A stretch of 57,239 nucleotides of DNA, taken from assembly GCF_003696205.1 (NCBI RefSeq), contig NZ_RFFI01000007.1:1-57239 (forward strand). The letters are read 5' to 3'. Source of the stretch: Cellulomonas triticagri (GTDB lineage Bacteria > Actinomycetota > Actinomycetes > Actinomycetales > Cellulomonadaceae). The notes beneath the pieces are model-generated. The model made no database searches and was not told the origin of the DNA. It saw only the letters and a list, made by a program, of their open reading frames with translations. Positions 372 through 50,641 of the stretch are shown piece after piece. Position 1 is the first letter of the stretch; the number at the start of each line of letters is the position of its first letter. The translations under genes and the position numbers were made by a program.

Positions 372-382
372 AGGAGCGCGAG

Positions 383-18905: not shown

Positions 18906-18983
18906 ATGCGCCACACGACTCCCGCCGCACGCACCCGCGCCTGTCGACCCCTGTCGACCGCCGCGTGCTGTTGTCGTCGCTGA
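18906..18983 (+). CDS. polycysteine leader peptide (attenuator uORF)
   Basis: A 25-codon open frame starting MRHTTPAART and ending Ala-Ala-Cys-Cys-Cys-Arg-Arg-stop; the three Cys codons are at 18966-18974. It lies directly behind a promoter and 332 bases before the transporter gene. Polycysteine small ORFs in actinobacteria are known to act as cysteine-sensing attenuators. A stem GTCGTC/GACGAC (18973-18978 with 19007-19012), continued by AGCGCG/CGCGCT, overlaps the last codons, so ribosome stalling at Cys codons would change the fold. It is very similar at its 3' end to the leader at 38944-38973. Confidence 0.8.
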   Translation: MRHTTPAARTRACRPLSTAACCCRR

Positions 18984-19218
18984 GCGCGCTGCGTCGCTGA
19001 CGCGCTGACGACCCCGGCGCCCGCGTCCGGTCCCTGAGGGGACCCGCCGCCCCGGGAGCACCGTCCCCCCGCCCGACCCTCGGTCGCGGACCCCGGCACC
19101 TGCCGGCCCGTCCCGCGCACCCCGGCCCGGCCTCCTCCCGCCCTCGCGGTCACCCTCCGGTGCCCGCCCGGTCCGGGAATTCCCGACCGCATGGTCCGGT
19201 TCCGCCTCCTGGAACCGG
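18973..19218 (+). promoter_or_regulatory. attenuator leader hairpins of the ABC operon
   Basis: The leader holds three GC-rich stems: the uORF-overlapping stem 18973-19012, GGTCCC-TGAG-GGGACC at 19029-19044, and CCGGTTCC-N7-GGAACCGG at 19196-19218, a perfect 8-pair hairpin 97 bases before the transporter start. The last may be the actual terminator or Rho-blocking element. The rest of 18984-19315 has no gene. Confidence 0.5.
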
Positions 19219-19315
19219 GACGGCCGACCTCGTCGACCGGCCGCACCCTCCTGCTCCACCCCCGTGCCGCGCCCCGGCCCCGCCGCCGCGCACCCTCCCG
19301 GAAGGACACCACCCC

Positions 19316-20842
19316 GTGAGCTCCCGCCGATCCCGCGCTCCCCTCGGAGCCGCCCTCGTCGCCGTCGCCGCCCTGGCGCTGGCCGCCTGCGGCACCGGGG
19401 GTACCTCCTCCGCCGACGGCTCCGGCAGCACCGGCGCGACCGACGCGTCCGCCGAGATCGTCATCGGCTCGACCAACGAGCCGACCGGTCTGGTCCGGAA
19501 CGTCGGCGGGTCGTCCGGCGTCTCGCAGACCATGACCCGCAACGTCTACGAGGGCCTGACCTCGGTGGACGTCGACGGGACGGTCATCCCGACGCTGGCC
19601 GAGTCCTGGGACGTGTCCGAGGACGGCCTGACGTACACGTTCCACCTGCAGCCGGACGTGACCTTCCACGACGGCAGCCCGCTGACCGCGGCCGACGTGG
19701 TGTGGAGCATCACCGAGGCCATCGGCCCGGAGTCGAAGTCCGCCCGCAAGAGCGACCTGCTGGTGATCCAGCAGGCCACGGCCGTGGACGACGCGACCGT
19801 GCAGCTCGACCTGTCGCGCCCGTCGCAGGGCCTGACGTTCTACCTGGCGTCGGTGACGGTCGTCCGCGACGGCGACACCGAGCTGACCAGCGACAACGGC
19901 ACCGGTCCGTACCGGTTCGTCGAGTGGGTGCAGGGCGACCACCTCACCATCGAGCCGTACGACGGCTACTGGGGCGAGCCCGCGCAGAACGGCGGCGTGA
20001 CGTTCCGGTTCTTCCAGGACACCACCGCGCTGAACAACGCGCTGCTGACCGGTGACCTCGACCTGGTCATCGCGGAGGACTCCCCCGACCAGCTCGTGCA
20101 GTTCGAGGACAACCCGGACTTCACGATCACCGAGGGCACCTCGACCACCAAGCAGATCTGGGCGTTCAACGACCGCGAGGCGCCGTTCAGCGACGTGCGC
20201 GTGCGGCAGGCGCTGTACAAGGCGATCGACCGCGAGGCGATCCTGTCGGCGGTGTGGGACGGCTACGGCCAGGTCATCGGCTCGATGGTCCCGCCGACGG
20301 ACCCCTGGTACGTCGACCAGGCCGACGTGCACGGCTACGACCCGGACGCCGCCGAGGCGCTCCTGGCCGAGGCCGGCGTCTCCGACCTCTCGATCTCCGT
20401 GGACTACATCCCGGACGGCACGACCGACGCGATCCTCGCGCTGCTCACCAAGGACCTCGCGGCCGTCGGCGTGACCCTCACGCCGAACCCGATCGACGAC
20501 GCCACCTGGTACCAGAAGGTCTACACGGACCACGACTTCTCCACGACGCTGATGGGCCACGTGAACCCGCGCGACGTGCTCTGGTACGCGAACCCCGACT
20601 TCTACTGGGGCTACGACAACCCGCAGGTGCAGGAGTGGGTCACCGCCGCCGACCAGGCGAGCACCGAGGCCGAGCAGGTCGAGCTGCTGACGCAGGTCAA
20701 CGAGACGATCGGCGAGGAGGCGGCGTCCGCCTGGCTGTACCTGGACCCGCAGATCCGCGTCGCCCGGTCCGACATCTCCGGCTTCCCGGTGGACCAGGTG
20801 ACCGAGTCGTTCTACGTCGCCGACATCGTCCGGGGGTCCTGA
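19316..20842 (+). CDS. ABC transporter substrate-binding lipoprotein, peptide family 5
   Basis: A 508-residue extracytoplasmic receptor. Signal peptide with lipobox LALAAC, then the SBP_bac_5 fold: TMTRNVYEGLTSVDVDGTVIPTLAESWDVSEDGLTYTFHLQPDVTFHDG near the N-terminus, and FSDVRVRQALYKAIDREAI in the middle. Peptides, but also glutathione, nickel or opines, are ligands of this family. GTG 19316 has GGAAGGA 8-10 bases upstream. It is the first gene of a five-gene operon and is preceded by the polycysteine leader, so I infer a sulfur-containing ligand such as a cysteinyl peptide or glutathione. Confidence 0.92.
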   Translation: MSSRRSRAPLGAALVAVAALALAACGTGGTSSADGSGSTGATDASAEIVIGSTNEPTGLVRNVGGSSGVSQTMTRNVYEGLTSVDVDGTVIPTLAESWDVSEDGLTYTFHLQPDVTFHDGSPLTAADVVWSITEAIGPESKSARKSDLLVIQQATAVDDATVQLDLSRPSQGLTFYLASVTVVRDGDTELTSDNGTGPYRFVEWVQGDHLTIEPYDGYWGEPAQNGGVTFRFFQDTTALNNALLTGDLDLVIAEDSPDQLVQFEDNPDFTITEGTSTTKQIWAFNDREAPFSDVRVRQALYKAIDREAILSAVWDGYGQVIGSMVPPTDPWYVDQADVHGYDPDAAEALLAEAGVSDLSISVDYIPDGTTDAILALLTKDLAAVGVTLTPNPIDDATWYQKVYTDHDFSTTLMGHVNPRDVLWYANPDFYWGYDNPQVQEWVTAADQASTEAEQVELLTQVNETIGEEAASAWLYLDPQIRVARSDISGFPVDQVTESFYVADIVRGS

Positions 20843-20846
20843 CCCC

Positions 20847-21806
20847 GTGCGTGCCGCACTGCTGCGGATCGGCACCCTGCTGATCTCCCTCGTCCTGGCG
20901 AGCGTGGTCGTGTTCGTCGTGCTCCGGCTGCTACCGGGCGACAGCGCGGGCACCTCGCTGGGCGTGGGCACCACCGCCGACCAGCTGGAGCAGCTGCGCT
21001 CCGAGCTGGGCACCGACCAGCCGGTGGTGACGCAGTACGTGCAGTGGCTCGGCCAGGTGGTCCGCGGGGACCTCGGCACGTCCTTCGTGTCGCGCCTCCC
21101 CGTGGCCGACCTGATCACGCAGAAGCTCCCGATCACGGTCCCGCTCAGCCTGGCCGCGTTCGTCATGGCCGCGCTCGTGTCGGTGCCCCTCGGCGTGTTC
21201 GCCGCGGTGCACCGGCGCGGGCCGGTCGGGGTGGCGGTGTCGGCGGTCTCGCAGCTGGGTGTCGCCGTCCCGGTGTTCTGGGTCGGTGTGCTGCTGGTGC
21301 TGGTGCTCGCGCTGCAGGCGCGGCTGCTGCCCGCCGGCGGGTTCCCGCGCACCGGCTGGGACGACCCCGCCGCCGCGGTGCGGTCGCTGGTGCTGCCCGT
21401 GGTCACGGTCGCCATCGCCATGTCCGCGGTCATGGTGCGGTACGTGCGGTCCGCGACCCTCGACGTGCTGGACCAGGACCACCTGCGCACCGCCCGGTCG
21501 CTCGGCTACGGCCGCTGGCACGCGCTGGCCCGGCACGGCCTGCGCGGCGCGGCGGTGCCGGTGGTGTCGATCCTCGGCATCGAGCTCGCGACCTCGCTGC
21601 TCGGCGCCGTCGTCATCGAGAACGTGTTCGCGCTGCCCGGCCTGGGCACGCTGCTGCTCGACTCCGTGAAGGCCCGGGACCTGCCCGTCGTCCAGGCGCT
21701 CGTGCTGGGGCTGACCGCCGTGGTGCTGGTGACGAACGCCCTGGTGGACCTCGCGCAGCGGGCGATCGACCCGCGCCTGCGCCTGTCGAAGGAGGTGGCG
21801 GCATGA
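20847..21806 (+). CDS. peptide ABC transporter permease (DppB-like)
   Basis: A 319-residue inner-membrane permease with six predicted helices. Starts RAALLRIGTLLISLVLASVVVFVVLRLLPGD, typical of DppB-type subunits, and carries the coupling motif DHLRTARSLGYGRWHALARHGLRGAAVP (EAA-like loop) and the C-terminal ENVFALPGLGTLLLDSVKARDLPVVQ. GTG 20847 follows the receptor stop by 4 bases. It pairs with the next permease. Confidence 0.94.
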   Translation: MRAALLRIGTLLISLVLASVVVFVVLRLLPGDSAGTSLGVGTTADQLEQLRSELGTDQPVVTQYVQWLGQVVRGDLGTSFVSRLPVADLITQKLPITVPLSLAAFVMAALVSVPLGVFAAVHRRGPVGVAVSAVSQLGVAVPVFWVGVLLVLVLALQARLLPAGGFPRTGWDDPAAAVRSLVLPVVTVAIAMSAVMVRYVRSATLDVLDQDHLRTARSLGYGRWHALARHGLRGAAVPVVSILGIELATSLLGAVVIENVFALPGLGTLLLDSVKARDLPVVQALVLGLTAVVLVTNALVDLAQRAIDPRLRLSKEVAA

Positions 21807-22687
21807 CCGACCTCACCACCGCCGTGCCCGCCGCGACGGGTGCCGCGGAGCCGAGGCCGCGCCGACGCGCCCGCCGGCTGCCCCCGTCGCTCGTCGTCGG
21901 GGCCGTGCTCGTGGGCCTCGTCGCGCTGGTCGGCCTGGTGTCGCTGGTCTGGACGCCGTACGCGCTGGACGACACCGGCGACGGCGCCCGCCTGGCGGGG
22001 CCGAGCGCCGCGCACTGGGGCGGGACCGACCGCCTCGGGCGCGACCTGCTCAGCCAGCTGATGGCCGGCGCCGGGAACGCGCTGGTCGTCGCCGTCGCGT
22101 CGATGGTCGTCGCCGGGGTGCTCGGCGTGACCGTCGGCGTGCTCGCCGGTGCGACCCGCCGGTGGGTGGACGTCACCCTGCTGTCCGCAGTCGACCTGCT
22201 CATCGCGTTCCCGACGCTGCTGCTCGCCATGCTGATCGTCACGGTCCGCGGCGCGTCGCTGTGGTCCGCGGTGTGGGCCATCGGCATCTCCGGGTCGGCG
22301 GTGATCGCCCGGGTGACCCGGGTGAACGTCGCCCGCGTGCTGCGCGAGGACTACGTCACCGCCGCGCACGCCGCCGGCACCGGCTGGTGGGGCACCGTCA
22401 CGCGGCACGTCGTCCCGAACGTGTGGCCGACGCTGCTGGTGCAGCTCATGCTGCTCGGCGGCGGCGCCGTCCTCGCCGAGGCGTCCCTGTCCTACCTGGG
22501 GCTCGGCGCCCCGCCGCCGCAGGCGTCCTGGGGGCGGCTGCTGCAGGAGGCGCAGTCCACGATGCTCGTGCAGCCGTGGGGCGCGATCCTGCCCGGCGTC
22601 GCCATCGTGGTCACCGTCCTCGGCCTGAACCTGCTGGGCGACGGGATCCGCGAGCGCACCGACCCGAACCTGCGAGGTGACCGGTGA
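21803..22687 (+). CDS. peptide ABC transporter permease (DppC-like)
   Basis: A 294-residue permease with an N-terminal helix, the HWGGTDRLGRDLLSQLMAGAGNAL motif of DppC-type proteins, five further helices, and the EAA loop DYVTAAHAAGTGWWGTVTRHVVPNV. The C-terminus has AEASLSYLGLGAPPPQASWGRLLQEAQ, a family hallmark. ATG 21803 overlaps the preceding stop by 4 bases, with GGAGG at 21791-21795. It overlaps the ATPase gene likewise. Confidence 0.94.
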   Translation: MTDLTTAVPAATGAAEPRPRRRARRLPPSLVVGAVLVGLVALVGLVSLVWTPYALDDTGDGARLAGPSAAHWGGTDRLGRDLLSQLMAGAGNALVVAVASMVVAGVLGVTVGVLAGATRRWVDVTLLSAVDLLIAFPTLLLAMLIVTVRGASLWSAVWAIGISGSAVIARVTRVNVARVLREDYVTAAHAAGTGWWGTVTRHVVPNVWPTLLVQLMLLGGGAVLAEASLSYLGLGAPPPQASWGRLLQEAQSTMLVQPWGAILPGVAIVVTVLGLNLLGDGIRERTDPNLRGDR

Positions 22688-23502
22688 CCGCGCTGCTCTC
22701 CGTCGACGACCTGCGGGTCGAGACGTCCACCGGCCGCACCCTGCTGGACGGCGTGTCCTGGTCGCTGGACGCCGGGGGCCGCCTCGGGATCGTCGGCGAG
22801 TCCGGGTCCGGCAAGTCGCTGACCGCCCTGGCGGTGCTCGGGCTGCTGCCCGAGGGGATGCGCGCCACCGGGCGGGTGCTGCTCGACGGCACCGACCTGC
22901 TGACCCTGCCGCCGCGGGCGCTCGGCCGCGTCCGGGGCGCGCAGGTCGCGATGGTGTTCCAGGAGCCGCTGACCGCGCTCGACCCGCTGATGACCGTCGG
23001 TCGGCAGATCACCGGCCCGCTGCGGCTGCACCGCGGGCTGCGCGGGTCTGCGGCCCGGGACGAGGCCGCGCGACTCGCCCGGCTCGTGCACCTCACGGAC
23101 ACCGAGCGGATCCTGCGGTCCTACCCGTGGCAGCTGTCCGGCGGGCAGCGCCAGCGCGTCGCCCTGGCGATGGCGCTGGCCTGCGAGCCGCGCGTGCTGC
23201 TCGCCGACGAGCCGACGACCGCCCTCGACGTCACGGTGCAGGCCGAGGTGCTGGACCTGCTGGACGACCTGGTCGACCGCACCGGTGTCGCGCTCGCGTT
23301 CGTGTCGCACGACCTGCCGGTGGTCGCCCGCGTCGCCCGTGACCTCGTCGTCATGCGCGACGGCCGCGTCGTCGAGCGCACCACCGTCGCGGACGCCCTG
23401 GCCGGGGGCGAGGCCGCCTACACCCGGGACCTCGTCGCGGCGGCGCGCGCCGTCACCGGCCTCCCGACGCCGACCCGCACCGCCCCGGAGGACGCCCGAT
23501 GA
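22684..23502 (+). CDS. peptide ABC transporter ATP-binding protein (DppD-like)
   Basis: A 272-residue ATPase with Walker [10 protein letters not shown]-loop VFQEPLTALDPLMTVGRQI, signature LSGGQRQRV, Walker B VLLADEP and switch histidine FVSHDLPVVA. GTG 22684 overlaps the permease stop. It lacks the long cysteine-bearing C-terminal extension of DppD proteins that hold a Fe-S cluster. It forms a heterodimer with the next gene product. Confidence 0.95.
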   Translation: MTALLSVDDLRVETSTGRTLLDGVSWSLDAGGRLGIVGESGSGKSLTALAVLGLLPEGMRATGRVLLDGTDLLTLPPRALGRVRGAQVAMVFQEPLTALDPLMTVGRQITGPLRLHRGLRGSAARDEAARLARLVHLTDTERILRSYPWQLSGGQRQRVALAMALACEPRVLLADEPTTALDVTVQAEVLDLLDDLVDRTGVALAFVSHDLPVVARVARDLVVMRDGRVVERTTVADALAGGEAAYTRDLVAAARAVTGLPTPTRTAPEDAR

Positions 23503-24275
23503 GCACCCCCACCCCCGCGCGCACCCCCGTGCTGGAGGCCGTCGACGTCGCCCGGACGTTCGGCAGCACCCGGGCGCTCGACGGCGTCTCCGTCCGGGTC
23601 GAGCCCGGCCGCAGCATCGGCATCGTCGGCGAGTCCGGCTCCGGAAAGTCGACGCTGCTGCGCCAGCTGCTCGCCCTCGACTCGCCGACGGCGGGCGAGG
23701 TCCGGTTCCGCGGGCAGCGCCTCGACCGCCGGGACCGCGGGCTGCTGCGGCGCCTGCGCGCCGACGTGCAGCCGGTGTTCCAGGACCCGCGGTCCTCGCT
23801 GGACCCCCGCATGCGGATCGGTGCGGTCGTCGCCGAGCCCCTGCGGTCGCTGAAGGTCCCCGGGGACCACCGCGCCCGGGTCGTGGAGGTGCTGGCCTCC
23901 GTCGGCCTCGACCCCGAGGTCGCGTCCCGCTACCCCGCGCAGTTCTCCGGCGGGCAGCGGCAGCGCATCGCCATCGCGCGGGCCCTCGCGCCGTCGCCGT
24001 CCGTGCTGGTCGCCGACGAGCCCGTGTCCGCGCTCGACGTGTCCGTGCGGGGGCAGGTCGTGGACCTGCTGCACGGCCTCGCGGCCACCCAGGGGCTGAC
24101 GCTGGTGCTGGTGTCGCACGACATCGCCATCGTCGGGCGGCTGTGCGAGCGCACCGTCGTGCTGCACCACGGCCGCGTGGTCGAGGAGGGCCCGACGGCG
24201 TCGGTGCTCGCCGACCCGCAGGACGCCTACACGCGGCGGCTGCTCGCGGCGGTGCCGCAGCTGCCGGTCGGGTGA
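23499..24275 (+). CDS. peptide ABC transporter ATP-binding protein (DppF-like)
   Basis: A 258-residue ATPase with Walker [11 protein letters not shown]-loop VFQDPRSSLDPRMRIGAVVAEPL, signature FSGGQRQRI, Walker B VLVADEPVSALD and switch SHDIAIV. It overlaps the DppD-like gene by 4 bases and closes the operon, ending 7 bases before a convergent gene. All subunits of an importer are therefore present: receptor, two permeases, two ATPases. Confidence 0.95.
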   Translation: MSTPTPARTPVLEAVDVARTFGSTRALDGVSVRVEPGRSIGIVGESGSGKSTLLRQLLALDSPTAGEVRFRGQRLDRRDRGLLRRLRADVQPVFQDPRSSLDPRMRIGAVVAEPLRSLKVPGDHRARVVEVLASVGLDPEVASRYPAQFSGGQRQRIAIARALAPSPSVLVADEPVSALDVSVRGQVVDLLHGLAATQGLTLVLVSHDIAIVGRLCERTVVLHHGRVVEEGPTASVLADPQDAYTRRLLAAVPQLPVG

Positions 24276-24282
24276 CCGGGCC

Positions 24283-24735
24283 TCAGTCCCACCAGCAGAG
24301 CAGCGCCGCGTACCCGTCCGGGACGTCGAACGGCTCCAGGTCGCGCTTCGGGCCGCGCTCCCGGACGTCGTCGGGCGCGTAGTCCTCCGGGAACCACGAC
24401 CGCACGGTCTCCGGGTCCGCGGTGGTCACGACGACGACCTCCTCGGAGAACGGCCAGAAGTCCGGGTCCTCCGCCTCCAGGACGACGACCCGCACGTCCG
24501 CCACCTCGGGGCGGTCGCGGACGGACTCCAGCACCGCGCGCACCTGCTGCGGCGTCGGCGCGTCGTCCTCGTCCTCGCCGGCACCGGTGAGGACGACGTT
24601 GCACAGGATCGACCCGGTGTCGTCGTTGCCGTCGAAGAACTCCGCGAGCGTCAGCACGGGGGCGGGTACGCCCTCCGCGCCGACCTCGCCGCCCCGCCCC
24701 ACCCGCTCGTGCACCCGCTGCGTCGCCGTCGTCAT
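24283..24735 (-). CDS. hypothetical acidic cytoplasmic protein
   Basis: A 150-residue acidic protein with no family I recognise. It has a central GSILCNVVLTGAGEDEDDAPTPQQVRAVLESVRDRPEVADVRVVVLEAED segment, an alternating strand-helix-strand pattern, and a C-terminal tryptophan-rich end FDVPDGYAALLCWWD. No signal peptide or membrane helix. ATG 24735 has TACCGT seven bases upstream on the minus strand (24743-24748), so it is likely leaderless. The C-terminal WxxP-like spacing (WFPEDYAPDDV) may be a domain edge. Confidence 0.7.
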   Translation of the reverse strand: MTTATQRVHERVGRGGEVGAEGVPAPVLTLAEFFDGNDDTGSILCNVVLTGAGEDEDDAPTPQQVRAVLESVRDRPEVADVRVVVLEAEDPDFWPFSEEVVVVTTADPETVRSWFPEDYAPDDVRERGPKRDLEPFDVPDGYAALLCWWD

Positions 24736-24742
24736 GGGTACG

Positions 24743-24748
24743 ACGGTA
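24743..24748 (-). promoter_or_regulatory. -10 element TACCGT, leaderless start
   Basis: Minus-strand TACCGT with 7 bases (CGTACCC) to ATG 24735. Confidence 0.5.
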
Positions 24749-24773
24749 CGGGGCCGCTGGTCGACGCTGCTGC

Positions 24774-26936: not shown

Positions 26937-26982
26937 GCGTGCTCCCCTGGGGTCGGTGCGTCCTCGTCGACGCGGTCCTGGG

Positions 26983-27660: not shown

Positions 27661-27667
27661 AGAACCG

Positions 27668-27684
27668 ACGGTATCAGGTACTGT
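27668..27684. promoter_or_regulatory. divergent promoter palindrome, likely TetR operator
   Basis: ACGGTA-TCAGG-TACTGT, arms matching at 5 of 6 positions. The left arm is the minus-strand -10 (TACCGT) of the tetR gene and the right arm is a plus-strand -10 (TACTGT) for the thiolase operon. One bound dimer would close both promoters. Confidence 0.6.
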
Positions 27685-27705
27685 GAGTTTCGGGCAGTGA
27701 GACAA

Positions 27706-27719
27706 GGGACCGAGGTCCC
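27706..27719. promoter_or_regulatory. copy of the GGACCTCGGTCC palindromic motif (thiolase upstream)
   Basis: GGGACCGAGGTCCC, the same sequence as the purF copy but on the other strand, with perfect 6-base arms. It is 60 bases before the thiolase ATG and about 20 bases downstream of the inferred transcription start. Confidence 0.6.
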
Positions 27720-27778
27720 ACGCCACGAGCGACCATGCACCACCGACGACATCGACGACGATGCGGGAGGACCCCCAC

Positions 27779-31448: not shown

Positions 31449-31508
31449 CGTCCGCTCAGTGGAACAGGGCGGCTCCGGCGTGTCCCCGCCGGGTGCGACG
31501 CTGGGGGC

Positions 31509-32132: not shown

Positions 32133-32144
32133 TCCTGCCGGGTC

Positions 32145-32183
32145 GCCGCACGGGGGTCACCCCCTGCGCGGCCCCCGTGCGGC
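32145..32183. terminator. bidirectional hairpin terminator
   Basis: A perfect 12-pair stem, GCCGCACGGGGG with its complement, around a 15-base loop, in the 74-base gap between two convergent genes. It should stop transcripts from both sides. Confidence 0.8.
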
Positions 32184-32206
32184 TGCGCGTCGCCAGGGCA
32201 CCGGCG

Positions 32207-33595
32207 TCAGTCCTCGACGGCCGGCCCGCAGGCCGCGGCCGCCGTGGCGGCGATCGCGTCGATGCCGGTCACGGCCGGCCGCGGCCGGGTGTCCCCCGCG
32301 ACGGCCCAGCAGCCGTCCACGACCTCGTAGGCCGCGCGCGGCCCGTCGGTGACGTAGGCGCGCAGCCCCGCGACCAGTCGGTCCACGGCCTCGGTGGTGG
32401 TCCCGACGCCGACGGACGCGCGGATCGCCCCGCCGGGCACGCCGACGCGCGCGAGCAGCGGGTGGGCGCAGAACCGGCCGTCCCGGACGCCGATGCCGTG
32501 CTCGGCGGACAGGTACGCGGCGACGAGGCCGGAGTCGTGCTCGCCGACGGTGAACGACACGACGCCCACCGGGTCGGCGGAGTCCGACCACAGCCGCAGC
32601 ACCCGCACGCCCGGGATGTCCGCGAGGCCGTCCAGCAGTCGCGTGCGCAGCGCGTCCTCGTGCGCGGCGAGCGCCCCGGTCGGGAGCGCGGCGAGGGTGT
32701 CGCAGGCCTGGGCGAGCGCGACGGCGCCGAGCACGTTGGGCGAGCCGCCCTCGTGCCGGGCGGGTGCGGGCTGCCACAGGGCCCGGTCGGTGCGCACGTC
32801 GCGCACGGCGCCGCCGCCCGCGAGGTACGGCGTCCCCGCGTCGAGCCAGTCGCGGCGGCCGACGAGCGCGCCCGCGCCGAACGGGGCGTAGGTCTTGTGC
32901 CCGGAGAACGCCACGTAGTCGACACCCGAGTCCGCGAGCGAGAACGCCCGGTGCGGCAGCAGCTGGGCGCCGTCGACGGCGACCCGTGCCCCGGCCTCCT
33001 GGGCCAGGGCGACGACCGAGGTGATCGGCAGGGCCTCGCCGGTGACGTTGGACGCCCCGGTGAGCGTGACCAGCGCGTACGGCTGCCGCGCGAGCTCGTC
33101 GCGCAGCGCCGTGAGCGTCCCCGCGACCGTCGGCGCGGCCGGCACCACGGTGGCCGTGCGGCCCGAGCCGCGCACCGACCGCACCCAGGGCAGCAGGTTC
33201 GCGTGGTGCTCGATGTCGAGCACCAGCACCCGGCCGCCGTCGGGGACGCAGCCCGCGAGCAGGTTGAGCGCGTCCGTGGTGTTGCGGGTGATGACGGCGA
33301 CGTCGTCGTCTCGAGCCCCGGCGAACCGGGCGACCGTGGCCCGCGCCGACTCGTAGAGCGCGGTGGACAGCTGCGACAGGTACCCGGCGCCGCGGTGCAC
33401 GGACGCGTACAGCGGCAGCACCTCCACGACGCGGGCGGCGACCGCCTCCAGCGCGGGCGCGGACGCCGCGTAGTCGAGGTTCGCGTACGGCACCTGGCGG
33501 CCGTCGACGAGCGGGACCAGGGTGTCGGCGCCGACGACCGGGAGCAGCGCCCGGTCGGCGGTGGTGGCGCAGGACGTGGTGGCCGGGAAGGACAT
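32207..33595 (-). CDS. class-V aminotransferase / cysteine desulfurase-like protein
   Basis: A 462-residue PLP enzyme. The fold-type I hallmarks are NLDYAASAPALEAVAARV, the TRNTTDALNLLA loop, DIEHHANLLPW, DGAQLLPH and the PLP lysine K234 in FSGHKTYAPFGAG. The ASAP and EHHAN segments resemble SufS-type desulfurases, but there are no suf genes nearby and the residues after the lysine differ, so sulfur mobilisation is a likely but unproved role. The 413-base leader holds a SAM-IV-like riboswitch and a hairpin that buries the GGGGG ribosome site (33603-33607), so it should respond to S-adenosylmethionine. ATG 33595. Confidence 0.9.
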   Translation of the reverse strand: MSFPATTSCATTADRALLPVVGADTLVPLVDGRQVPYANLDYAASAPALEAVAARVVEVLPLYASVHRGAGYLSQLSTALYESARATVARFAGARDDDVAVITRNTTDALNLLAGCVPDGGRVLVLDIEHHANLLPWVRSVRGSGRTATVVPAAPTVAGTLTALRDELARQPYALVTLTGASNVTGEALPITSVVALAQEAGARVAVDGAQLLPHRAFSLADSGVDYVAFSGHKTYAPFGAGALVGRRDWLDAGTPYLAGGGAVRDVRTDRALWQPAPARHEGGSPNVLGAVALAQACDTLAALPTGALAAHEDALRTRLLDGLADIPGVRVLRLWSDSADPVGVVSFTVGEHDSGLVAAYLSAEHGIGVRDGRFCAHPLLARVGVPGGAIRASVGVGTTTEAVDRLVAGLRAYVTDGPRAAYEVVDGCWAVAGDTRPRPAVTGIDAIAATAAAACGPAVED

Positions 33596-33602
33596 GGGAC
33601 TA

Positions 33603-33621
33603 CCCCCGACGGATCGGTGGG
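33603..33621 (-). promoter_or_regulatory. hairpin sequestering the ribosome site (expression platform)
   Basis: A stem of CCGA/TCGG plus three further G-C pairs with one bulged base buries the GGGGG ribosome site, 7 bases before ATG 33595. It is the likely switch part of the riboswitch upstream, acting at translation start. Confidence 0.55.
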
Positions 33622-33676
33622 GGCCCGGGTACGGCCGGGTCACCCCGCGCTTGCCGGACGCCGGACGGCGGACGGC

Positions 33677-33757
33677 CAGGTCGTCACCCGGGGCACCCCG
33701 CCGCGGAGGGAGGGTTGCCGGCCAGCGAGCCGGGGCTTCGCGCTGGCGCTCATGACC
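33677..33757 (-). ncRNA. SAM-IV-like riboswitch
   Basis: On the minus strand the RNA begins GGTCATGAGCGCCAGCG, then AAGCCCCGGCTCGCTGGCC, GGCAACCCTCC, GGCGGGGTGCC and closes with GTGACGACC. This order of conserved blocks is what I recall for the SAM-IV class of actinobacteria. A -35 TTGACA (33789-33794) and -10 CATCCT would start transcription at about 33758, just before the first paired base. It precedes the class-V PLP enzyme by about 80 bases. Confidence 0.8.
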
Positions 33758-33798
33758 TGGTTCGAGGATGGGTCGGGCGCCCGCGGCCTGTCAACCGG

Positions 33799-33835
33799 TG
33801 TCCAGCACGCGGCCGGGGTGAACCCCGGCTGGACA
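33799..33835. promoter_or_regulatory. nested palindrome between divergent riboswitch promoters
   Basis: Outer arms TGTCCAGC/GCTGGACA are perfect, and inside lies GCCGGGGT-GA-ACCCCGGC (33812-33829), also perfect. It sits just behind the minus-strand -35 and about 30 bases before the plus-strand -10, so one regulator could serve both directions. A transcription block between the two is the alternative. Confidence 0.55.
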
Positions 33836-33875
33836 GGCGCCCACCCCGCTCCCGACGATGGCGTAGCATCGCCGC

Positions 33876-33993
33876 ACCATCCAGAGCGGCCGAGAGATCT
33901 GGCTCGTCGACGCCGCAGCAACCCGCGGTCCGCGGACCCCACCCCCACCGGTGGGCCCGGACCGGCCGAGGGTGCTTCCGCCAGGTCCGATGG
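33876..33993 (+). ncRNA. SAM-I (S-box) riboswitch
   Basis: The leader runs from CCATC (33877-33881), paired with GATGG (33989-33993) as P1, through AGAGCGGCCGAGAGATCTGG, the kink-turn side GACGCCGCAGCAACC, a stem around GGTCCGCGGACC, and GGTGCTTCCGCCAGGTCC. These blocks in this order are S-box signatures. TAGCAT (33864-33869) is a -10 six bases before the first base. The GGAGGAGAGGG ribosome site starts within the P1 closing strand, so control is probably at translation initiation. Confidence 0.88.
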
Positions 33994-34008
33994 AGGAGAG
34001 GGACACCC

Positions 34009-34212
34009 ATGACCGACGACCGCCTGCGCTACCGGCTGCTGACGGGACCCGACGACCGCTCGTTCTGCGAGCGGGTCAGCGCCGCGCTGGACGAGGGCTA
34101 CGTGCTGCACGGCGGCCCCGCCGCGACCCACGACGGGGAGCGCGTGATCGTCGCGCAGGCCGTCGTCCTGCCCGCCGGCACCACCGGCACGACCCCGGTG
34201 CGGCCGCTGTGA
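34009..34212 (+). CDS. DUF1737 family protein
   Basis: A 67-residue protein of the DUF1737 type: YRLLTGPDDRSFCERVSAALDEGYVLHGGPAATHDGERVIVAQAVV. The function is unknown. It is the first gene of the SAM-riboswitch operon, with GGAGGAGAGGG 6 bases before ATG 34009. It overlaps the rhodanese start by 4 bases. Its single Cys, in the conserved FCERV, is worth noting because its neighbours handle sulfur. Confidence 0.85.
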   Translation: MTDDRLRYRLLTGPDDRSFCERVSAALDEGYVLHGGPAATHDGERVIVAQAVVLPAGTTGTTPVRPL

Positions 34213-34658
34213 GCGCCGCGCTGCCGACCCCGTACGCGGGCGACCTGACCCCGCGCGAGGCGTGGGACCTGCTGGCGACCGACCCGCGCGCCCTGCTCGT
34301 GGACGTCCGCACCGACGGCGAGTGGCGCACCATCGGCGTGCCCGACACCGCGGACCTCGTGGGGGACGACGCCGACGAGCGCACGGCGTTCGTGCAGTGG
34401 ACCGACGCGTTCGGGCGGCCGAACCCGGCGTTCCTCAACGACCTCGCGGCGGTGGGGCTCACCGCGGACGAGCCGCGCCCCGTGGTGTTCCTCTGCCGGT
34501 CCGGCGTGCGCTCGGTCGCGGCCGCGACGACCGCGACCGCCGCCGGGCTCGGACCCGCGTACAACGTGATCAGCGGGTTCGAGGGCGACGTCGGCCCGGA
34601 CGGGCAGCGCGGCCACTGGGGCTGGCGCGCCGAGGGCCTGCCCTGGCGGGAGGCGTGA
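34209..34658 (+). CDS. rhodanese-domain sulfurtransferase
   Basis: A 149-residue single-domain rhodanese that could carry persulfide sulfur. Active-site loop VVFLCRSGVRSVAAAT holds the catalytic Cys; LLVDVRTDGEWRTIGVPD is the N-terminal CH2A-like motif. GTG 34209 overlaps the DUF1737 stop and its own stop overlaps metZ, so the three are one translational unit. Such rhodanese genes often precede metZ in actinobacteria and proteobacteria, hence a role in methionine or homocysteine sulfur supply is inferred. Confidence 0.92.
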   Translation: MSAALPTPYAGDLTPREAWDLLATDPRALLVDVRTDGEWRTIGVPDTADLVGDDADERTAFVQWTDAFGRPNPAFLNDLAAVGLTADEPRPVVFLCRSGVRSVAAATTATAAGLGPAYNVISGFEGDVGPDGQRGHWGWRAEGLPWREA

Positions 34659-35908
34659 CCGGGGCCCCGGGCCCGGCGGACTGGCGCGACGGGCGGCTGC
34701 CGCGCGCCACGCTGCGCCCGGACACGCTCGCCGTCCGCGGCGGGACGGTGCGCTCCGAGTTCCAGGAGACGTCCGAGGCCCTGTTCCTCACCCAGGGCTA
34801 CGTGTACGAGCGCGCCGCGGACGCCGAGGCGGCGTTCGCCGGGGAGGCCGACCGGTTCCTGTACTCCCGGTACGGCAACCCCACGGTGTCGTCGTTCGAG
34901 GAGCGGCTGCGCCTGCTCGAGGGCGCCGAGGCCTGCTACGCCACCGCGTCCGGCATGTCGGCGGTGTTCACGGCCCTGGCGGCGCTGGTCCGCTCCGGGT
35001 CGCGGGTCGTGGCGGCGCGGGCGCTGTTCGGGTCGTCCGTCGTGATCTTCGACGAGATCCTCGCGTCCTGGGGCGTGCGCACCGACTACGTCGACGGCCA
35101 CGTGCCCGAGCAGTGGGAGGCCGCGCTCGCCACCCCCGCGGACGTCGTGTTCTTCGAGACGCCGTCCAACCCGATGCAGGACCTCGTGGACATCGCGACC
35201 GTCAGCCGGCTCGCGCACGCCGCCGGGGCGGTCGTCGTCGTGGACAACGTGTTCGCGACGCCGGTGCTGTCCCGGCCGCTGCCGCTCGGCGCGGACGTCG
35301 TCGTGTACTCGGCGACCAAGCACATCGACGGCCAGGGCCGGGTGCTCGGCGGAGCGATCCTCGGCTCGGACGCGTTCGTGCACGGGCCCGTGCAGACCCT
35401 CATCCGGAACACCGGCCCCTCGCTGAGCCCGTTCAACGCGTGGGTGCTGCTCAAGGGCCTGGAGACGCTGTCCCTGCGGGTGCGGCACCAGACGGCGTCC
35501 GCGCTGACGCTCGCGACCTGGCTGGAGCAGCACCCCGCCGTCGCGCAGGTCCGGTACCCCTACCTGCCGTCGCACCCGCAGCACGCGCTGGCGCTCGCGC
35601 AGCAGGACGGCGGCGGCACCGTGGTGACGTTCGACCTGCGGGTGCCCGCGAGCGCGACGCCGGACGTCGCGAAGAAGGCGACCTTCGGGGTGCTGGACGC
35701 GCTGCGCGTGGTCGACATCTCGAACAACCTCGGCGACGCGAAGTCCCTGGTCACGCACCCGGCGACCACGACCCACCGCAAGCTCGGCCCCGCCGGGCGC
35801 GCGGCGGTCGGCATCGCCGAGTCCACGGTCCGCCTCTCGGTCGGCCTGGAGGACGTGCGCGACCTCCGCGACGACCTCGCCCAGGCCCTGGCAGCGCTCA
35901 CCCCGTAG
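34655..35908 (+). CDS. metZ: O-succinylhomoserine sulfhydrylase
   Basis: A 417-residue PLP enzyme of the Cys/Met metabolism family that forms homocysteine directly from acylated homoserine and sulfide. Motifs: TLAVRGGTVRSEFQETSEALFLTQGYVY, YSRYGNPTVSSFEERL, ATASGMSAVFTAL, ETPSNPMQDLVDI, and lysine K222 in VVVYSATKHIDGQGRVLGG. The ETSEALFLTQGY start and DGQGR favour MetZ over cystathionine enzymes, though family substrate calls from sequence are only moderately reliable. GTG 34655. End of the SAM-riboswitch operon; a long inverted repeat follows 9 bases after the stop. Confidence 0.9.
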   Translation: MTGAPGPADWRDGRLPRATLRPDTLAVRGGTVRSEFQETSEALFLTQGYVYERAADAEAAFAGEADRFLYSRYGNPTVSSFEERLRLLEGAEACYATASGMSAVFTALAALVRSGSRVVAARALFGSSVVIFDEILASWGVRTDYVDGHVPEQWEAALATPADVVFFETPSNPMQDLVDIATVSRLAHAAGAVVVVDNVFATPVLSRPLPLGADVVVYSATKHIDGQGRVLGGAILGSDAFVHGPVQTLIRNTGPSLSPFNAWVLLKGLETLSLRVRHQTASALTLATWLEQHPAVAQVRYPYLPSHPQHALALAQQDGGGTVVTFDLRVPASATPDVAKKATFGVLDALRVVDISNNLGDAKSLVTHPATTTHRKLGPAGRAAVGIAESTVRLSVGLEDVRDLRDDLAQALAALTP

Positions 35909-35917
35909 CCCCGGGGC

Positions 35918-35988
35918 GCGAGGTCGAGGGTTTCCCGCGACACGCCGGGCCGACACGCCGAGCCTGGGCGGGAAACCCTCGACCTCGC
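35918..35988. repeat. REP-like intergenic inverted repeat, copy 2
   Basis: Two perfect 21-base arms (35918-35938 and 35968-35988) around a 29-base loop. Each arm contains GCGAGGTCGAGGGT as in copy 1 at 13813, continued by TTCCCGC. It follows metZ by 9 bases and may end its transcript, but arms this long and the recurrence elsewhere suggest a repeat family. Confidence 0.8.
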
Positions 35989-36261
35989 CGGGTGCCCGGC
36001 CGGATCACGGGGCGCCGGTGTGCGCCGCGTCAGGCGTCAGGTCGCGACCGCGACCGCCGAGTGCCGAGTCCCGACGGCTGAACGCGCGCGAGCTCGGAGC
36101 AGGCGCCATGGAGCGCGAGCACGCACGTCCCAGCCCGCAGCGCTCGGACCTACTCAGGGCCGAACGTCCCACTCATTCAGACGGCGTGCTGGTGTCGTCG
36201 GCGTTGTTCGTTCGTGCCGATCCCCGCTGCTGCCGCAGCGCCCGACTGACGGAGGCCCTGA
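35989..36261. other. intergenic region before the pilin-like gene
   Basis: 273 bases with no recognisable gene. It includes the GGAGG ribosome site (36251-36255) of the gene at 36262. No promoter stands out. Confidence 0.4.
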
Positions 36262-38163
36262 GTGGCAACCTGGAGACATCGCCTCACAACGCGGGTCAGG
36301 AGTGCGCGGGGCGATTCCGGCTACGTGCTGGCGTCGGTGATCGGGATGATGTCGGTGCTGCTGCTGATCCTGCCGATGCTGCTCGCCGCCACCACGATGT
36401 CCATCGGGTGGTCGACCGCACAGCGTGCGGCGATCCAGGCGAGCGCCGCGGCAGAGGCCGGCATCGCCGAGGCCCGGGCCGTGCTCGCCTCGGGGGACTG
36501 CTGGTCACGCGCTCCGGGCGGCACGCTCACGTCGACGGTCACCCCCACCGGTGAACCGCTGGCCTACGAGGTCGAGATCCGACCGAAGGCGGCTGGATCC
36601 CTCACCGAACCGACCACGGCCGCGTGTCCGACCACCTCGGGCGCGCTCTACACCGAGTCGGTGACCATCGTGGCGACCGGGCACGCCAGCACCCCGGGAG
36701 TCGGGAACTCCTCGGGCGACACCCGCACCATGCAAGCGGTCGTGGATGCGCAATACCCCGCTCCACCAGGATGGGTCGATTACCAGGGGTACCCGTTCTC
36801 CGTGTACTCCGAGCGGGACATGACCAGAATGCCAAACTCTGAGTCGAACTTTAACCCGACGATCGATCTTGAGACACGCATCTTGGTGGGCGGCGACTTC
36901 ACTTGCGGATACCCGAGCGCCACCGGGGCCTACGGCAACTCGCACACCTACGTCCTGGGCGACATGACCGTCGACGAATTACCCTCCACACACGGGGACC
37001 AATGCGGTCCGGTAAGCGGCGGCAGCAGCCTGGTAAGCGCTTCGGCGATGCGCATCGGGGGCGACCTCAACTTGGACAGCGAATTTCGGCTTTTCCGGAA
37101 GCTTGTGTGGGTTGACGGCTCCCTGCGCGCGAACCACCCTCGGGCTCTCTCGACGGGTTTCAGCAGTACCGTCATCGTCGACGGCGACCTCATTCTTGAT
37201 AATTTCTACGGGGTGACCGAGAGCACCTCTGTGAGATACGTCGTCGGAGGCGATCTCGTCGTCAATGCGCGCTCGTCCCGCGACCGGTATACGGACAAGG
37301 CAATCGCCATACCGAGCGACTCGAGCTTGTCTGTCGTGGTCGGCGGGCAGCTGAGGGGGACCTGGGCGGACGCCTGGCAGGCGGAAGCCGAAGCCGACGA
37401 CAAGTTCGATCTCACGGTTGGGGTGGGTAAGGAGGCGGCGCTCTCCACCGGCCCTGTCGCGCCTGAGTTCCCGGCAGAGCTCCTGGACCCGAGCCTCATG
37501 CGTTGGCGCGCCGACGCACCCCACCTCCGAGGTGGTGACGAACTCCAGGACATGGACTGGGACACTGCTCTGGAGGCGGCTTCGTCCGGAACCCTCTCCG
37601 ATTCTTGCGTGCTGTCCGGTGAACTGGTCTTCACGGTCACCACCGGGACCCGCATCGACACACGTACAACCTGCCCCACAGGCTTGGTGTTCGACGGCGA
37701 CGTCACCTTCGACCTGCAGGGCGACCTGGTGCTGCTGATCGCCGGCCTCACGCAACGCGGAAGCACCCAGGTCGTCGCCCCCAGCGACGGGTTCAGCGCG
37801 CTTTACGTGGTCGAACCCTGGCCCGACGCCCCCGGCGCGACCTGCGACGACAACGGCGCCAACGGAATCCACCTCGAGAGCGGCGCTTTCTCGCATGTCA
37901 ACTACGAAGACGTGCGCAAGTCCTCAGCAGTCGTCTTCTACACCGCCGGCGAGCTCCGCCTGGGCGAGAACTTCCCCGCGCAGCTGTGGACGAACTCCCA
38001 CCGGATGATCGGACACTGGTACGGCTGCACGGTAGAGATCGCCGACCGCACGGGGACGGGCAAGGTTCCCTACCTCTCTGCGCCCTTCGCCCGCAGCAGC
38101 GCGCCCTCGACACCCAGCGGGCAGGAGCCGACGTGGGTGCTGGTCAGCGTTCGCGACACCTGA
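36262..38163 (+). CDS. large pilin-like/PilX-type surface protein
   Basis: A 633-residue protein. GTG 36262 has GGAGG 6 bases upstream. The N-terminus, RGDSGYVLASVIGMMSVLLLILPMLLAATTMSIGWSTAQRAAIQASAAAEAGIAEARAVL, is a single membrane anchor followed by an Ala-rich amphipathic helix, as in prepilin minor subunits and PilX-like proteins, with a glycine-serine (GDSG) before the hydrophobic stretch as a possible processing site. The body has about six short repeats with GGD or GDL turns (ILVGGDFTCG, MRIGGDLNLD, VIVDGDLILDN, YVVGGDLVVNA), implying a beta helix like bactofilin-related folds. Six or more cysteines suggest disulfides. AT-richer codons, including TTA at 36979-36981, and no pilus genes nearby suggest acquisition. 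Confidence 0.7.
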   Translation: MATWRHRLTTRVRSARGDSGYVLASVIGMMSVLLLILPMLLAATTMSIGWSTAQRAAIQASAAAEAGIAEARAVLASGDCWSRAPGGTLTSTVTPTGEPLAYEVEIRPKAAGSLTEPTTAACPTTSGALYTESVTIVATGHASTPGVGNSSGDTRTMQAVVDAQYPAPPGWVDYQGYPFSVYSERDMTRMPNSESNFNPTIDLETRILVGGDFTCGYPSATGAYGNSHTYVLGDMTVDELPSTHGDQCGPVSGGSSLVSASAMRIGGDLNLDSEFRLFRKLVWVDGSLRANHPRALSTGFSSTVIVDGDLILDNFYGVTESTSVRYVVGGDLVVNARSSRDRYTDKAIAIPSDSSLSVVVGGQLRGTWADAWQAEAEADDKFDLTVGVGKEAALSTGPVAPEFPAELLDPSLMRWRADAPHLRGGDELQDMDWDTALEAASSGTLSDSCVLSGELVFTVTTGTRIDTRTTCPTGLVFDGDVTFDLQGDLVLLIAGLTQRGSTQVVAPSDGFSALYVVEPWPDAPGATCDDNGANGIHLESGAFSHVNYEDVRKSSAVVFYTAGELRLGENFPAQLWTNSHRMIGHWYGCTVEIADRTGTGKVPYLSAPFARSSAPSTPSGQEPTWVLVSVRDT

Positions 38164-38195
38164 CTTCATAGCAGTTCGAGGCCGAGCAAGACACG

Positions 38196-38873
38196 TCACG
38201 CAGGCGCGTCGACTGGGAGCATGAGGCCCACGGACTGAAGCCGCGCGCGCCCGGAGAGGGCCGCACCGCTCCCCAGCGGGTGCAGGACGACGCCGTCGAC
38301 CCTGGCGCGGCGGGCGAGCTCCTCGACCTCCGCTCGCAGGCGGTCCGGGGTCGTGACCACGCGGGTGTCCGCCGGGGACCAGGTGAGCCCGGCGAGGGCG
38401 TCCAGGTACTCGAGCTGCGACCGCTTGCGGCGCGCCACCCGGTCGTCGGCCGCGAGCACGACGTCCAGATCCAGCAGCACCCGCACCTCGGCGCGGTCCC
38501 GGCCAGCGGCGGCGACGGCGTCCTCGACCAGCGCGACGACCCGGGCCAGCGCGCCGACCGACGGCACGGCGACCGAGAACGCGAGCCGGATGACGTCCGC
38601 GGTGCGCGCGGCCACGTCGATGGCGGACTCGGAGCCGGGCCGCGCCTCGACGGTGCGGACGCCGTAGGCGGGCTCACCGACCTCGACGGTCACGGGCACA
38701 GCCAGGGCCGGGACGACGGCGACCGGCGCAGCGGCGCGCGGCAGGACCGGGGCCTCGAGGTCCGTGGGCGGTGCGGGGTGCCGACGCAGCGCGGCGCGAG
38801 CGCGGGCGGCGGGGAGCAGGGACGACGGGTGGGCGGCGGACGCGGCGACGCGGTCCAGCACGGGCTGAGCCAT
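38196..38873 (-). CDS. luciferase-like (LLM) flavin monooxygenase, truncated
   Basis: A 225-residue protein whose residues about 60-200 resemble the C-terminal part of NtaA/SnaA-type LLM monooxygenases: AIDVAARTADVIRLAF, EDAVAAAGRDRAEVRVLLDLDVVLAADDRVARRKRSQLEYLDALAG, and VVTTPDRLRAEVEELARRARVDGVVLHP. Full-length members have 330-450 residues; the N-terminal half of the barrel is absent and replaced by about 55 Ala/Pro-rich residues, so it may be an inactive relic or a regulatory form. ATG 38873 has GAGGA 8 bases upstream. A Cys-Cys leader peptide 70 bases upstream suggests cysteine-controlled expression, typical for sulfur-scavenging monooxygenases. Confidence 0.6.
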   Translation of the reverse strand: MAQPVLDRVAASAAHPSSLLPAARARAALRRHPAPPTDLEAPVLPRAAAPVAVVPALAVPVTVEVGEPAYGVRTVEARPGSESAIDVAARTADVIRLAFSVAVPSVGALARVVALVEDAVAAAGRDRAEVRVLLDLDVVLAADDRVARRKRSQLEYLDALAGLTWSPADTRVVTTPDRLRAEVEELARRARVDGVVLHPLGSGAALSGRARLQSVGLMLPVDAPA

Positions 38874-38943
38874 GGGGTGTCCTCGGGCGTGAGGCGGGGT
38901 GCACGCGAGGGCCGTCCGGCCGCGGGCGCGCGAGGTCGTCAGC

Positions 38944-38973
38944 TCAGCGACAACACACCCGGCTCAGGAACAC
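38944..38973 (-). CDS. Cys-Cys leader peptide (attenuator uORF)
   Basis: Minus-strand frame MFLSRVCCR-stop, nine codons beginning GTG 38973. A TAAGGT -10 lies six bases upstream (38980-38985), so the transcript would be leaderless. The last bases TGTTGTCGCTGAGC match the other leader at 18906-18983, and a stem GTCG/CGAC (38935-38951) overlaps the stop. Given two leaders with Cys codons before the stop, each near a sulfur-related or peptide-uptake gene, cysteine-dependent attenuation is a reasonable call. Confidence 0.8.
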   Translation of the reverse strand: MFLSRVCCR

Positions 38974-38979
38974 GCGAGG

Positions 38980-38985
38980 ACCTTA
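38980..38985 (-). promoter_or_regulatory. -10 element TAAGGT, leaderless uORF
   Basis: Minus-strand TAAGGT with 6 bases (CCTCGC) to GTG 38973. Confidence 0.6.
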
Positions 38986-39042
38986 ACCGCGCGACCCGGA
39001 CCGGCACCACGGGGTGTCCACATCCCGGGCGAGGGTGTCGCC

Positions 39043-39504
39043 CTACAGTGCCTTCCCGAAGCACAGCGTCTCCGGGTGGTCGGCCCACGGCCCGTACGGC
39101 GTGATGGCGTCCCACCCGAGCGAGCGGTAGAGCGCGACGGACTCCGGCTGCCGCACGCCGGACTCCAGCACCAGCCGGGTCAGCCCGAGGGCGGCGGCAC
39201 GGGCCTCGACGGCGAGGACCAGTGCGCGACCGAGCCCCCGGCCGCGCGCGCCGGGGGCGACGTAGAGCCGCTTGACCTCCCCGGTGCCGGCACCGTGCCC
39301 GGGCGCGGCGTCCCGCAGCGAGACGCACCCGACCGGCGTGCCGTCGTGGTGCACCACCAGGGTCGTGAGCATCCCGTCGCCGGTGATCGGCTCGGTGTCC
39401 TCGTCGCCGTACCGGTCCGCGATCTCCCGCTCCTGGGCGGCGCGCAGCGCTGCCGCCGCGGCGTCGTCCCAGGGGACCTCCGCGACGGCGGGCATCTGCC
39501 CCAC
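39043..39504 (-). CDS. GNAT family N-acetyltransferase
   Basis: A 153-residue acetyltransferase. The acetyl-CoA site is EVKRLYVAPGARGRGLGRALVLAVEARAAALG, and LVLESGVRQPESVALYRSLGWDAITPYG is the family C-terminal pattern; CVSLRD is the fourth strand. Substrate unknown. It begins 2 bases after the purQ stop; GTG 39504 gives coupling with purQ, ATG 39495 is the alternative three codons later. The close spacing suggests co-transcription with purSQ. Confidence 0.85.
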   Translation of the reverse strand: MGQMPAVAEVPWDDAAAAALRAAQEREIADRYGDEDTEPITGDGMLTTLVVHHDGTPVGCVSLRDAAPGHGAGTGEVKRLYVAPGARGRGLGRALVLAVEARAAALGLTRLVLESGVRQPESVALYRSLGWDAITPYGPWADHPETLCFGKAL

Positions 39505-49146: not shown

Positions 49147-49193
49147 GCCGCGCCCCGCACCCGCACCGCACCCCGTCCCGAGAGGCCCGCCGC

Positions 49194-50636: not shown

Positions 50637-50641
50637 CCGGC

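Follow-up and report, generated by a model that had tools for sequence, protein, structure and literature searches.

How is a cluster of sulfur genes controlled when four candidate sulfur-sensing RNA leaders lie within 20 kb of one another? We analyzed a 57,239-nucleotide (nt) stretch of Cellulomonas triticagri DNA (assembly GCF_003696205.1, contig NZ_RFFI01000007.1, positions 1 to 57,239; hereafter, the window). Two of its leaders are short upstream open reading frames (uORFs) with adjacent cysteine codons near their ends. uORF1 precedes an ATP-binding cassette (ABC) importer with an SBP_bac_5 receptor, and uORF2 precedes a gene for the C-terminal part of a luciferase-like monooxygenase (LLM), here called half-LLM. 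The other two are a SAM-IV and a SAM-I (S-adenosylmethionine) riboswitch. An original prediction had assigned all four to one local sulfur-scavenging regulon. We found that all four leaders recur in relatives, drawn from a family set of 150 genomes, an order set of 297 genomes and, for the leader motif, the GTDB collection. We consider it probable that they serve two neighbouring sulfur modules with RNA sensors, a SAM module and a cysteine-starvation attenuation module. uORF1 and uORF2 probably read cysteine supply through their tiny Cys-rich peptides.

Two polycysteine uORFs are conserved before their target genes

Both polycysteine uORFs were found where they had been predicted. uORF1 (18906-18983, + strand; MRHTTPAARTRACRPLSTAACCCRR, then stop) has a TACAGT box 9 nt before its ATG, and uORF2 (38944-38973, − strand; MFLSRVCCR, then stop) has a TAAGGT box 6 nt before a leaderless GTG. 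We defined a strict rule as a leaderless ORF, with a TANNNT −10 box at the right distance before the start, carrying at least two adjacent Cys near its end. None of 2000 dinucleotide shuffles of the region upstream of the importer passed this rule, and one of 2000 did so for uORF2. We then tested the rule on 478 gene starts, taken from 35 stretches of the window and its relatives. It gave 21 matches, all of them before the importer receptor or half-LLM; these 21 are orthologs and not independent of one another. Eleven further stretches of the same genome, ten of them around other motif matches, held no uORF with a −10 box. The bare pattern TGYTGYTGYCGNN{0,12}TRA showed no clear excess across the genome (19 matches vs 13 for the reversed control), and eight uORF peptides matched none of the NCBIfam models.

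The half-LLM leader was the more stereotyped of the two. A search with the truncated LLM matched 56 of the 150 family genomes; 30 loci were fetched, and 19 of them encode the short protein. All 19 orthologs had a uORF of the form M..CCR followed by a stop (CCQLS in one case) behind a TANNNT box, with 68-76 nt between the uORF stop and the half-LLM start. Of 23 named half-LLM-type leaders, 19 had a complete ORF in the stretch, and in these 19, which come partly from the same genomes, the spacing was 68-75 nt. The DNA around and past the uORF2 stop, TGTTGTCGCTGAGCTGACGACC, is near-invariant and folds into a hairpin whose 5' arm contains the Cys codons. In the window this hairpin, H1 (GUUGUC...GACGAC; 38935-38954, − strand), holds the stop codon in its loop.

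We observed the same association when we searched with the leader motif. The pattern TGTTGTCGCTGAN{0,14}GACGA occurred once each in 24 of the 150 genomes and never in the reversed control; 21 of the 24 matches were positioned before half-LLM or a full-length LLM, the exceptions being in G136, G128 and G082. A tighter pattern gave 84 stretches in the GTDB collection, all of which were examined. Of these, 25 had a uORF with a −10 box, and half-LLM lay downstream in 23 of the 25, nearly all named Cellulomonas and overlapping in part with the family-search genomes. The other two of the 25 were Cellulomonas septica, described below, and Tessaracoccus oleiagri (L166:714-1272), which had the uORF MTQYRQTATSIVDARRCCCSCCR, then stop, before a DUF4395 gene. 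Five other GTDB stretches carried the motif before a full LLM.

The importer leader was conserved in its cysteine run rather than in its peptide body. A receptor search of the family set found matches in 45 genomes at E ≤ 1e-60, and 30 loci were fetched. A polycysteine uORF was present in 17 of 18 receptor orthologs at ≥58% identity (counting the window and one fragment); in the remaining one, L017, the leader is cut off by the contig end. The peptide bodies vary by genus (...AACCCRR, ...SAARCCRCL, ...TATTCCCCCC), and the terminal Cys run is kept. Leader length was about 190-390 nt. Among receptor homologs at 40-42% identity, 1 of 12 had two adjacent Cys near the end of a short ORF. Across the order, 13 of 297 genomes matched the receptor at E ≤ 1e-140. 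One of them, G212, belongs to another family (69% receptor identity) and has the importer leader uORF MSELVLVCRLHIDLQRTQSMGCCRRCR; four members of a third family (49-51% identity) had no polycysteine uORF.

In the window, the importer genes all lie on the + strand: the SBP_bac_5 lipoprotein receptor (19316-20842), whose single Cys is in the lipobox, two permeases (20847-21806 and about 21803-22687) and two ATPases (22684-24275). The G212 importer leader (L221/L226) is divergent from a cysteine-desulfurase-like gene (37% match) and from an apparently mnmA-like gene.

A divergent SAM-IV/SAM-I pair lies before sulfur genes

The Rfam covariance models recovered both riboswitches that had been proposed. 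The SAM-IV aptamer matched the full RF00634 model at 33642-33757 (− strand; 101.4 bits, E 1.7e-17, gathering score 38); the original prediction had caught its 5' part alone, 33677-33757. The SAM-I aptamer matched the full RF00162 model at 33874-33996 (+ strand; 38.3 bits, E 2.1e-7 in a 301-base search), under its gathering score of 44.4. We observed SAM-IV in all 21 relatives compared, with a SAM-I site over gathering beside it in 19, and the divergent pair, 0.1-1.1 kb apart, in 21 of 21 (six genera). These 21 genomes were a chosen set, 18 with half-LLM and three without (G043, G019, G015). Across the C. triticagri genome, RF00162 matches scored 53.5, 38.3 and 17.6 bits, and three RF00634 matches exceeded the cut-off. 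A second divergent riboswitch pair is present in the same genome, both members being SAM-IV over the cut-off (L219/L218; C130:2384-2483, − strand, and 2718-2832, + strand).

The genes behind the two aptamers had the identities predicted for them, apart from an additional first gene on the SAM-I side. The gene for a SufS-like class-V pyridoxal phosphate enzyme (32207-33595, − strand) starts 46 nt after the SAM-IV aptamer and encodes no Met beyond the initiator. This enzyme passed PF00266 and scored below the TIGR01979 SufS cut-off (275.5 vs 475.1). On the other strand, the Shine-Dalgarno core GGAGG (33992-33996) is part of the 3' strand of the SAM-I P1 stem; this 3' strand stops 12 nt short of a DUF1737 gene (34009-34212, + strand). 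Only then follow the rhodanese gene (34209-34658, + strand) and metZ (34748-35908, + strand), an O-succinylhomoserine sulfhydrylase above its NCBIfam cut-off.

Proposed mechanism of the two modules

Control by cysteine and SAM, as originally proposed, is likely, given the Rfam matches and the comparative genomics of both polycysteine leaders. We infer the response, its direction and the molecular step from sequence. The SAM module would be built around a divergent promoter region, with SAM-IV before the SufS-like enzyme and SAM-I before DUF1737-rhodanese-metZ; SAM binding would lower expression on both sides. Because the Shine-Dalgarno core lies in the P1 stem of SAM-I, SAM probably blocks translation there. 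In the cysteine module, transcripts that appear leaderless would open with a short ORF that has Cys-Cys(-Cys) among its final codons. A shortage of charged Cys-tRNA would slow the first ribosome on the Cys codons and switch on the downstream gene; when cysteine is plentiful, the ribosome would clear the uORF and the leader would refold.

For half-LLM, our best guess is translational attenuation relieved by cysteine starvation. The Cys codons lie in a hairpin, the uORF may pair near the Shine-Dalgarno sequence, and a stalled ribosome would open this pairing and allow translation. The Shine-Dalgarno sequence GAGGAC (38879-38884, − strand) is paired in the predicted fold, its pairing with the uORF being statistically weak. 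In all 19 orthologs the minimum-energy fold pairs it at least in part, in several of them with uORF sequence. A second stem (leader stem P1), in which the codons just ahead of the Cys run pair with a conserved GCACC, is suggestive only: it showed cognate preference in two of three leader types, with p < 0.05 in 11 of 32 leaders.

For the importer, Rho-dependent attenuation would be as likely as a translational step, given the long C-rich leader. The untranslated stretch between uORF1 and the receptor gene (18984-19315, + strand; 51% C, 30% G) is a weak candidate for Rho loading. Its maximum of C minus G in 78 nt was 0.36, compared to a median of 0.13 in 274 upstream regions, and maxima of at least 0.31 were found in 14 of 17 orthologs vs 7% of the 274 regions. 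Rho has also been proposed for mycobacterial cys leaders in PMC1262725, which calls its own prediction weak. Three importer leaders argue the other way, with maxima of 0.27, 0.18 and 0.12 (L018, L019 and L021). That the importer switch is Rho-dependent termination rather than translational control is plausible without being favoured, and it is compatible with the two-module explanation.

Several observations weigh against the picture drawn so far. C-richness is not specific, which counts against Rho in particular: a second SBP_bac_5 importer cluster in the same window (SBP2; 44318-52809, + strand; receptor with 5 Cys) has an equally C-rich leader that reaches 0.36 and no polycysteine uORF under the strict rule. 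The strict TANNNT rule itself was satisfied by only 5 of the 18 receptor orthologs, all in g1 and g17. The half-LLM leader folds hardly beat shuffles (mean z −0.79), the sequences being GC-rich, and the duplex between uORF and ribosome binding site was below the shuffle mean in 29 of 32 leaders, with p < 0.05 in only 3 of 32. RNAalifold found no pair in this leader with changes on both sides, and H1 hardly varies. The window SAM-I is about 6 bits under its gathering score. The remaining 54 of the 84 GTDB stretches had no LLM downstream and look like chance or cut loci; beyond Cellulomonas and its relatives, most motif matches look like chance.

The importer and the SAM genes are separable

We compared gene neighbourhoods across the half-LLM genomes. 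An importer ortholog was present in 6 of 19; in the five besides the window it lies 16-27 kb from half-LLM and is followed by acyl-CoA oxidase and thiolase, as in the window. There, the importer is 8 kb from the SufS-like gene and 14 kb from half-LLM, with acyl-CoA oxidase, thiolase and other genes between. The other 13 half-LLM genomes had no importer match at E ≤ 1e-60. In 16 of the 17 regions fetched, half-LLM and metZ are no more than ~4 kb apart; the other region is a contig of 9.5 kb that lacks metZ. Three genomes in which half-LLM was not found, G043 and G019 (long LLM frames only) and G015 (no match), nevertheless have the SAM-IV/SAM-I pair. Since the neighbourhood is kept in part of the group, its parts are separable and their signals differ, we read the locus as two neighbouring modules.

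A single co-regulated sulfur-scavenging regulon with an importer for glutathione or cysteinyl peptides now appears unlikely. Four leaders inside 20 kb and the shared importer, acyl-CoA oxidase and thiolase neighbourhood of the five other genomes speak for it. It would have to join two different signals, SAM and presumably Cys-tRNA supply, and neither the sparse occurrence of the importer nor the SAM pair in genomes where half-LLM was not found fits a single unit.

The ligand attached to that regulon found no specific support either. The receptor scored alike on the GsiB glutathione-importer model (NF011942; 135.7 bits, cut-off 594) and the NikA nickel-importer model (TIGR02294; 136.6 bits, cut-off 393), under both cut-offs, and the five-gene importer operon holds no peptidase or glutathione gene. 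Four distant importer homologs in f19 genomes are preceded by DUF1684 (tblastn, 31-34% identity; Pfam check of one). DUF1684 is a partner in LLM operons, which favours an organosulfur ligand without naming it. The importer ligand is most likely an organic sulfur compound, to judge from these gene associations, and not specifically glutathione, a guess that our results put in question. In G399 (L227:4865-5947), an ACC (1-aminocyclopropane-1-carboxylate) deaminase gene (TIGR01274; 509.9 bits, cut-off 392) lies just upstream of the DUF1684-importer homolog.

Half-LLM is a conserved, probably catalytically incomplete protein

Half-LLM (38196-38873, − strand) corresponds to the conserved C-terminal part of an NtaA/DmoA-type LLM. 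Its orthologs are 165-257 amino acids (aa) long; the N-terminus, often MAQ, is followed by a variable linker and then by a C-terminal core. In an hhalign comparison with seven full-length LLMs of relatives, the core matched columns 222-351 of 398 (98.7%). Against PF00296, half-LLM scored 23.1 bits (gathering 27.9) over profile positions 174-250 of 314, short of a complete domain, and against TIGR03860 it scored 23.9 bits (cut-off 279.7). A PDB profile search gave nothing significant, with YtnJ, MoxC and DszA at E 0.58-0.76. Because the N-terminal part of the fold is absent, half-LLM is unlikely to work as a normal LLM catalyst.

We assessed selection on half-LLM in 11 species pairs. The ratio of nonsynonymous to synonymous substitution rates (dN/dS) was 0.14-0.38 in the core and 0.25-0.98 in the N-terminal linker. 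The core values indicate purifying selection. We also weighed whether half-LLM is a decaying monooxygenase whose leader was merely kept from a full-length ancestor. Such decay would account for the survival of the C-terminal part alone, for the relaxed linker and for the window copy, whose C-terminus is unlike that of relatives. Cellulomonas septica (L134) fits it too, having kept the leader MSSSRVCCR, then stop, with no half-LLM ORF found behind. The constrained core and the 19 orthologs with an intact frame, a Shine-Dalgarno-like sequence and near-constant spacing make decay improbable, and we prefer a retained protein under cysteine-responsive control. Between metZ and half-LLM, the window has an ORF (36262-38163, + strand) with low GC content at third codon positions (GC3 0.83) and an apparently prepilin-like start; gene calls for the corresponding place in G093 and G109 do not include it.

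Full-length LLM genes of relatives often carry similar leaders. A polycysteine uORF preceded the full LLM in 7 of 11 fetched loci, and three others had a short MCCxCSCR ORF. The full LLM of L126, one of the seven used in the core alignment, scored above the NtaA/DmoA cut-off (286.8 vs 279.7 bits); its neighbours on one strand are a second NtaA/DmoA LLM, DUF1684, an ABC importer with an SBP_bac_3 receptor and a DAO oxidoreductase. Three g17 genomes (G069, G055, G038) have a third SAM-I aptamer upstream of an LLM of this type; in G069 it precedes the called LLM start by about 220 nt. At the window edge, 353-1564 (+ strand) encodes a full-length CE1758-family LLM monooxygenase (695.7 bits, cut-off 479.1) with no Cys, possibly another sulfur gene.

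A possible match between residue avoidance and the presumed signal of the leader

We counted Cys and Met in the genes behind each type of leader. The six Cys-leader genes of the window total 1876 aa and contain 3 Cys, of which one is in the lipobox, and 18 Met; the four SAM-leader genes total 1064 aa, with 9 Cys and 2 Met. Resampling of 260 background ORFs, which came from our own gene caller and include some wrong frames, showed low Cys in the Cys-leader set (P = 0.0135) and low Met in the SAM-leader set (P = 0.012). The other residue was ordinary in each set (Met in Cys-leader genes, P = 0.50; Cys in SAM-leader genes, P = 0.78).

Counts in relatives left out tblastn rows with a stop, with <45% identity (<55% for permeases and ATPases) or with <60% coverage; half-LLM was counted with no identity or coverage limit. 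Met was absent from 16 SufS-like sequences (7238 aa) and 9 DUF1737 sequences and occurred once in 16 rhodaneses. All 17 scored receptors had exactly one Cys each, and seven full LLMs had 0 Cys and 3 Met in 2730 aa. Not every gene conformed: metZ orthologs were hardly Met-depleted (46 Met in 17 sequences; 7.1 per 1000 vs 11.9 in neighbours), the ATPase ATP1a was not Cys-depleted (15 Cys in 9 sequences), and single control genes varied as widely (purS 0.8 and d31509 25 Cys per 1000). Given the ATP1a exception and the spread of control genes, the evidence for avoidance is moderate. The match between avoided residue and leader signal, Cys for polycysteine and Met for SAM, was noticed after the fact and would serve as a suggested sequence-only cue to the signal of a leader.

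A more far-reaching possibility, which we hold tentatively and think somewhat doubtful, is that half-LLM is a dedicated, catalytically incomplete protein that has been retained across Cellulomonas under the control of a cysteine-starvation attenuator; it might handle flavin as a partner of sulfur monooxygenases or regulate them. The composition of the products would then have co-evolved with the sensors, Cys-leader genes losing Cys and SAM-leader genes losing Met. If so, residue depletion could reveal which signal an unidentified leader senses.

Least credible is that the two polycysteine ORFs arose by chance or are conserved for another reason, such as a small protein acting in trans: the case for a sensor is built from sequence, and two adjacent Cys near a stop did appear in 15 and 29 of 2000 shuffles (uORF1 and uORF2, respectively) once the −10 box was waived, but chance is hard to square with conservation of the importer leader in 17 of 18 orthologs and of the half-LLM leader in all 19, with importer-leader peptides whose bodies diverge while the Cys run stays, or with the conserved DNA past the uORF2 stop.

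Comparison with known systems

Both riboswitches are ordinary. The SAM-IV aptamer, before the SufS-like enzyme, is a full model match with no difference seen from other RF00634 members. The SAM-I aptamer is a full-length S-box (RF00162) match whose window copy has a long insert in a GC-rich arm. Half-LLM aligns with the C-terminal columns of the NtaA/DmoA flavin mononucleotide-dependent monooxygenases (TIGR03860), and their N-terminal part is missing from it. Cognate bias, by which genes serving an amino acid avoid that residue, is described in PMC4209129; the avoidance seen here is alike in concerning the served amino acid and differs in matching the leader's presumed signal.

Polycysteine attenuation has precedents in PMC1262725 and PMC4633059, and in Canestrari et al. 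2020 as cited in PMC9031893 and PMC13236596. In these sources, such leaders occur in mycobacteria and in a small number of other actinobacteria. The literature searched turned up no polycysteine leader before an SBP_bac_5 importer or an LLM gene, which is not proof of absence. As far as these searches show, what is new is the choice of target genes, the conserved architecture of the leader and the half-LLM family.

The leaders described here share with the leaderless mycobacterial uORFs (cys operons, cysA2) a short leaderless-looking ORF, adjacent Cys before the stop and a link to sulfur genes. Their adjacent Cys lie near the stop, 5' of a gene, and are conserved across species; a leaderless start, judged by a −10 box in the sequence, was found in both window uORFs, all 19 half-LLM leaders and 5 of 18 receptor orthologs. 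They differ in their targets: in a Cellulomonas-type genome they stand before half-LLM and before an importer of the SBP_bac_5 type. The idea of polycysteine leaders, taken from the cys operons of mycobacteria, thereby reaches another family of actinobacteria, in which the genes concerned encode a peptide-type importer and a half-monooxygenase. Unlike the mycobacterial attenuators, the half-LLM leader also has a conserved hairpin over its Cys codons and near-fixed spacing, and this compact architecture offers a place where the mechanism can be tested.

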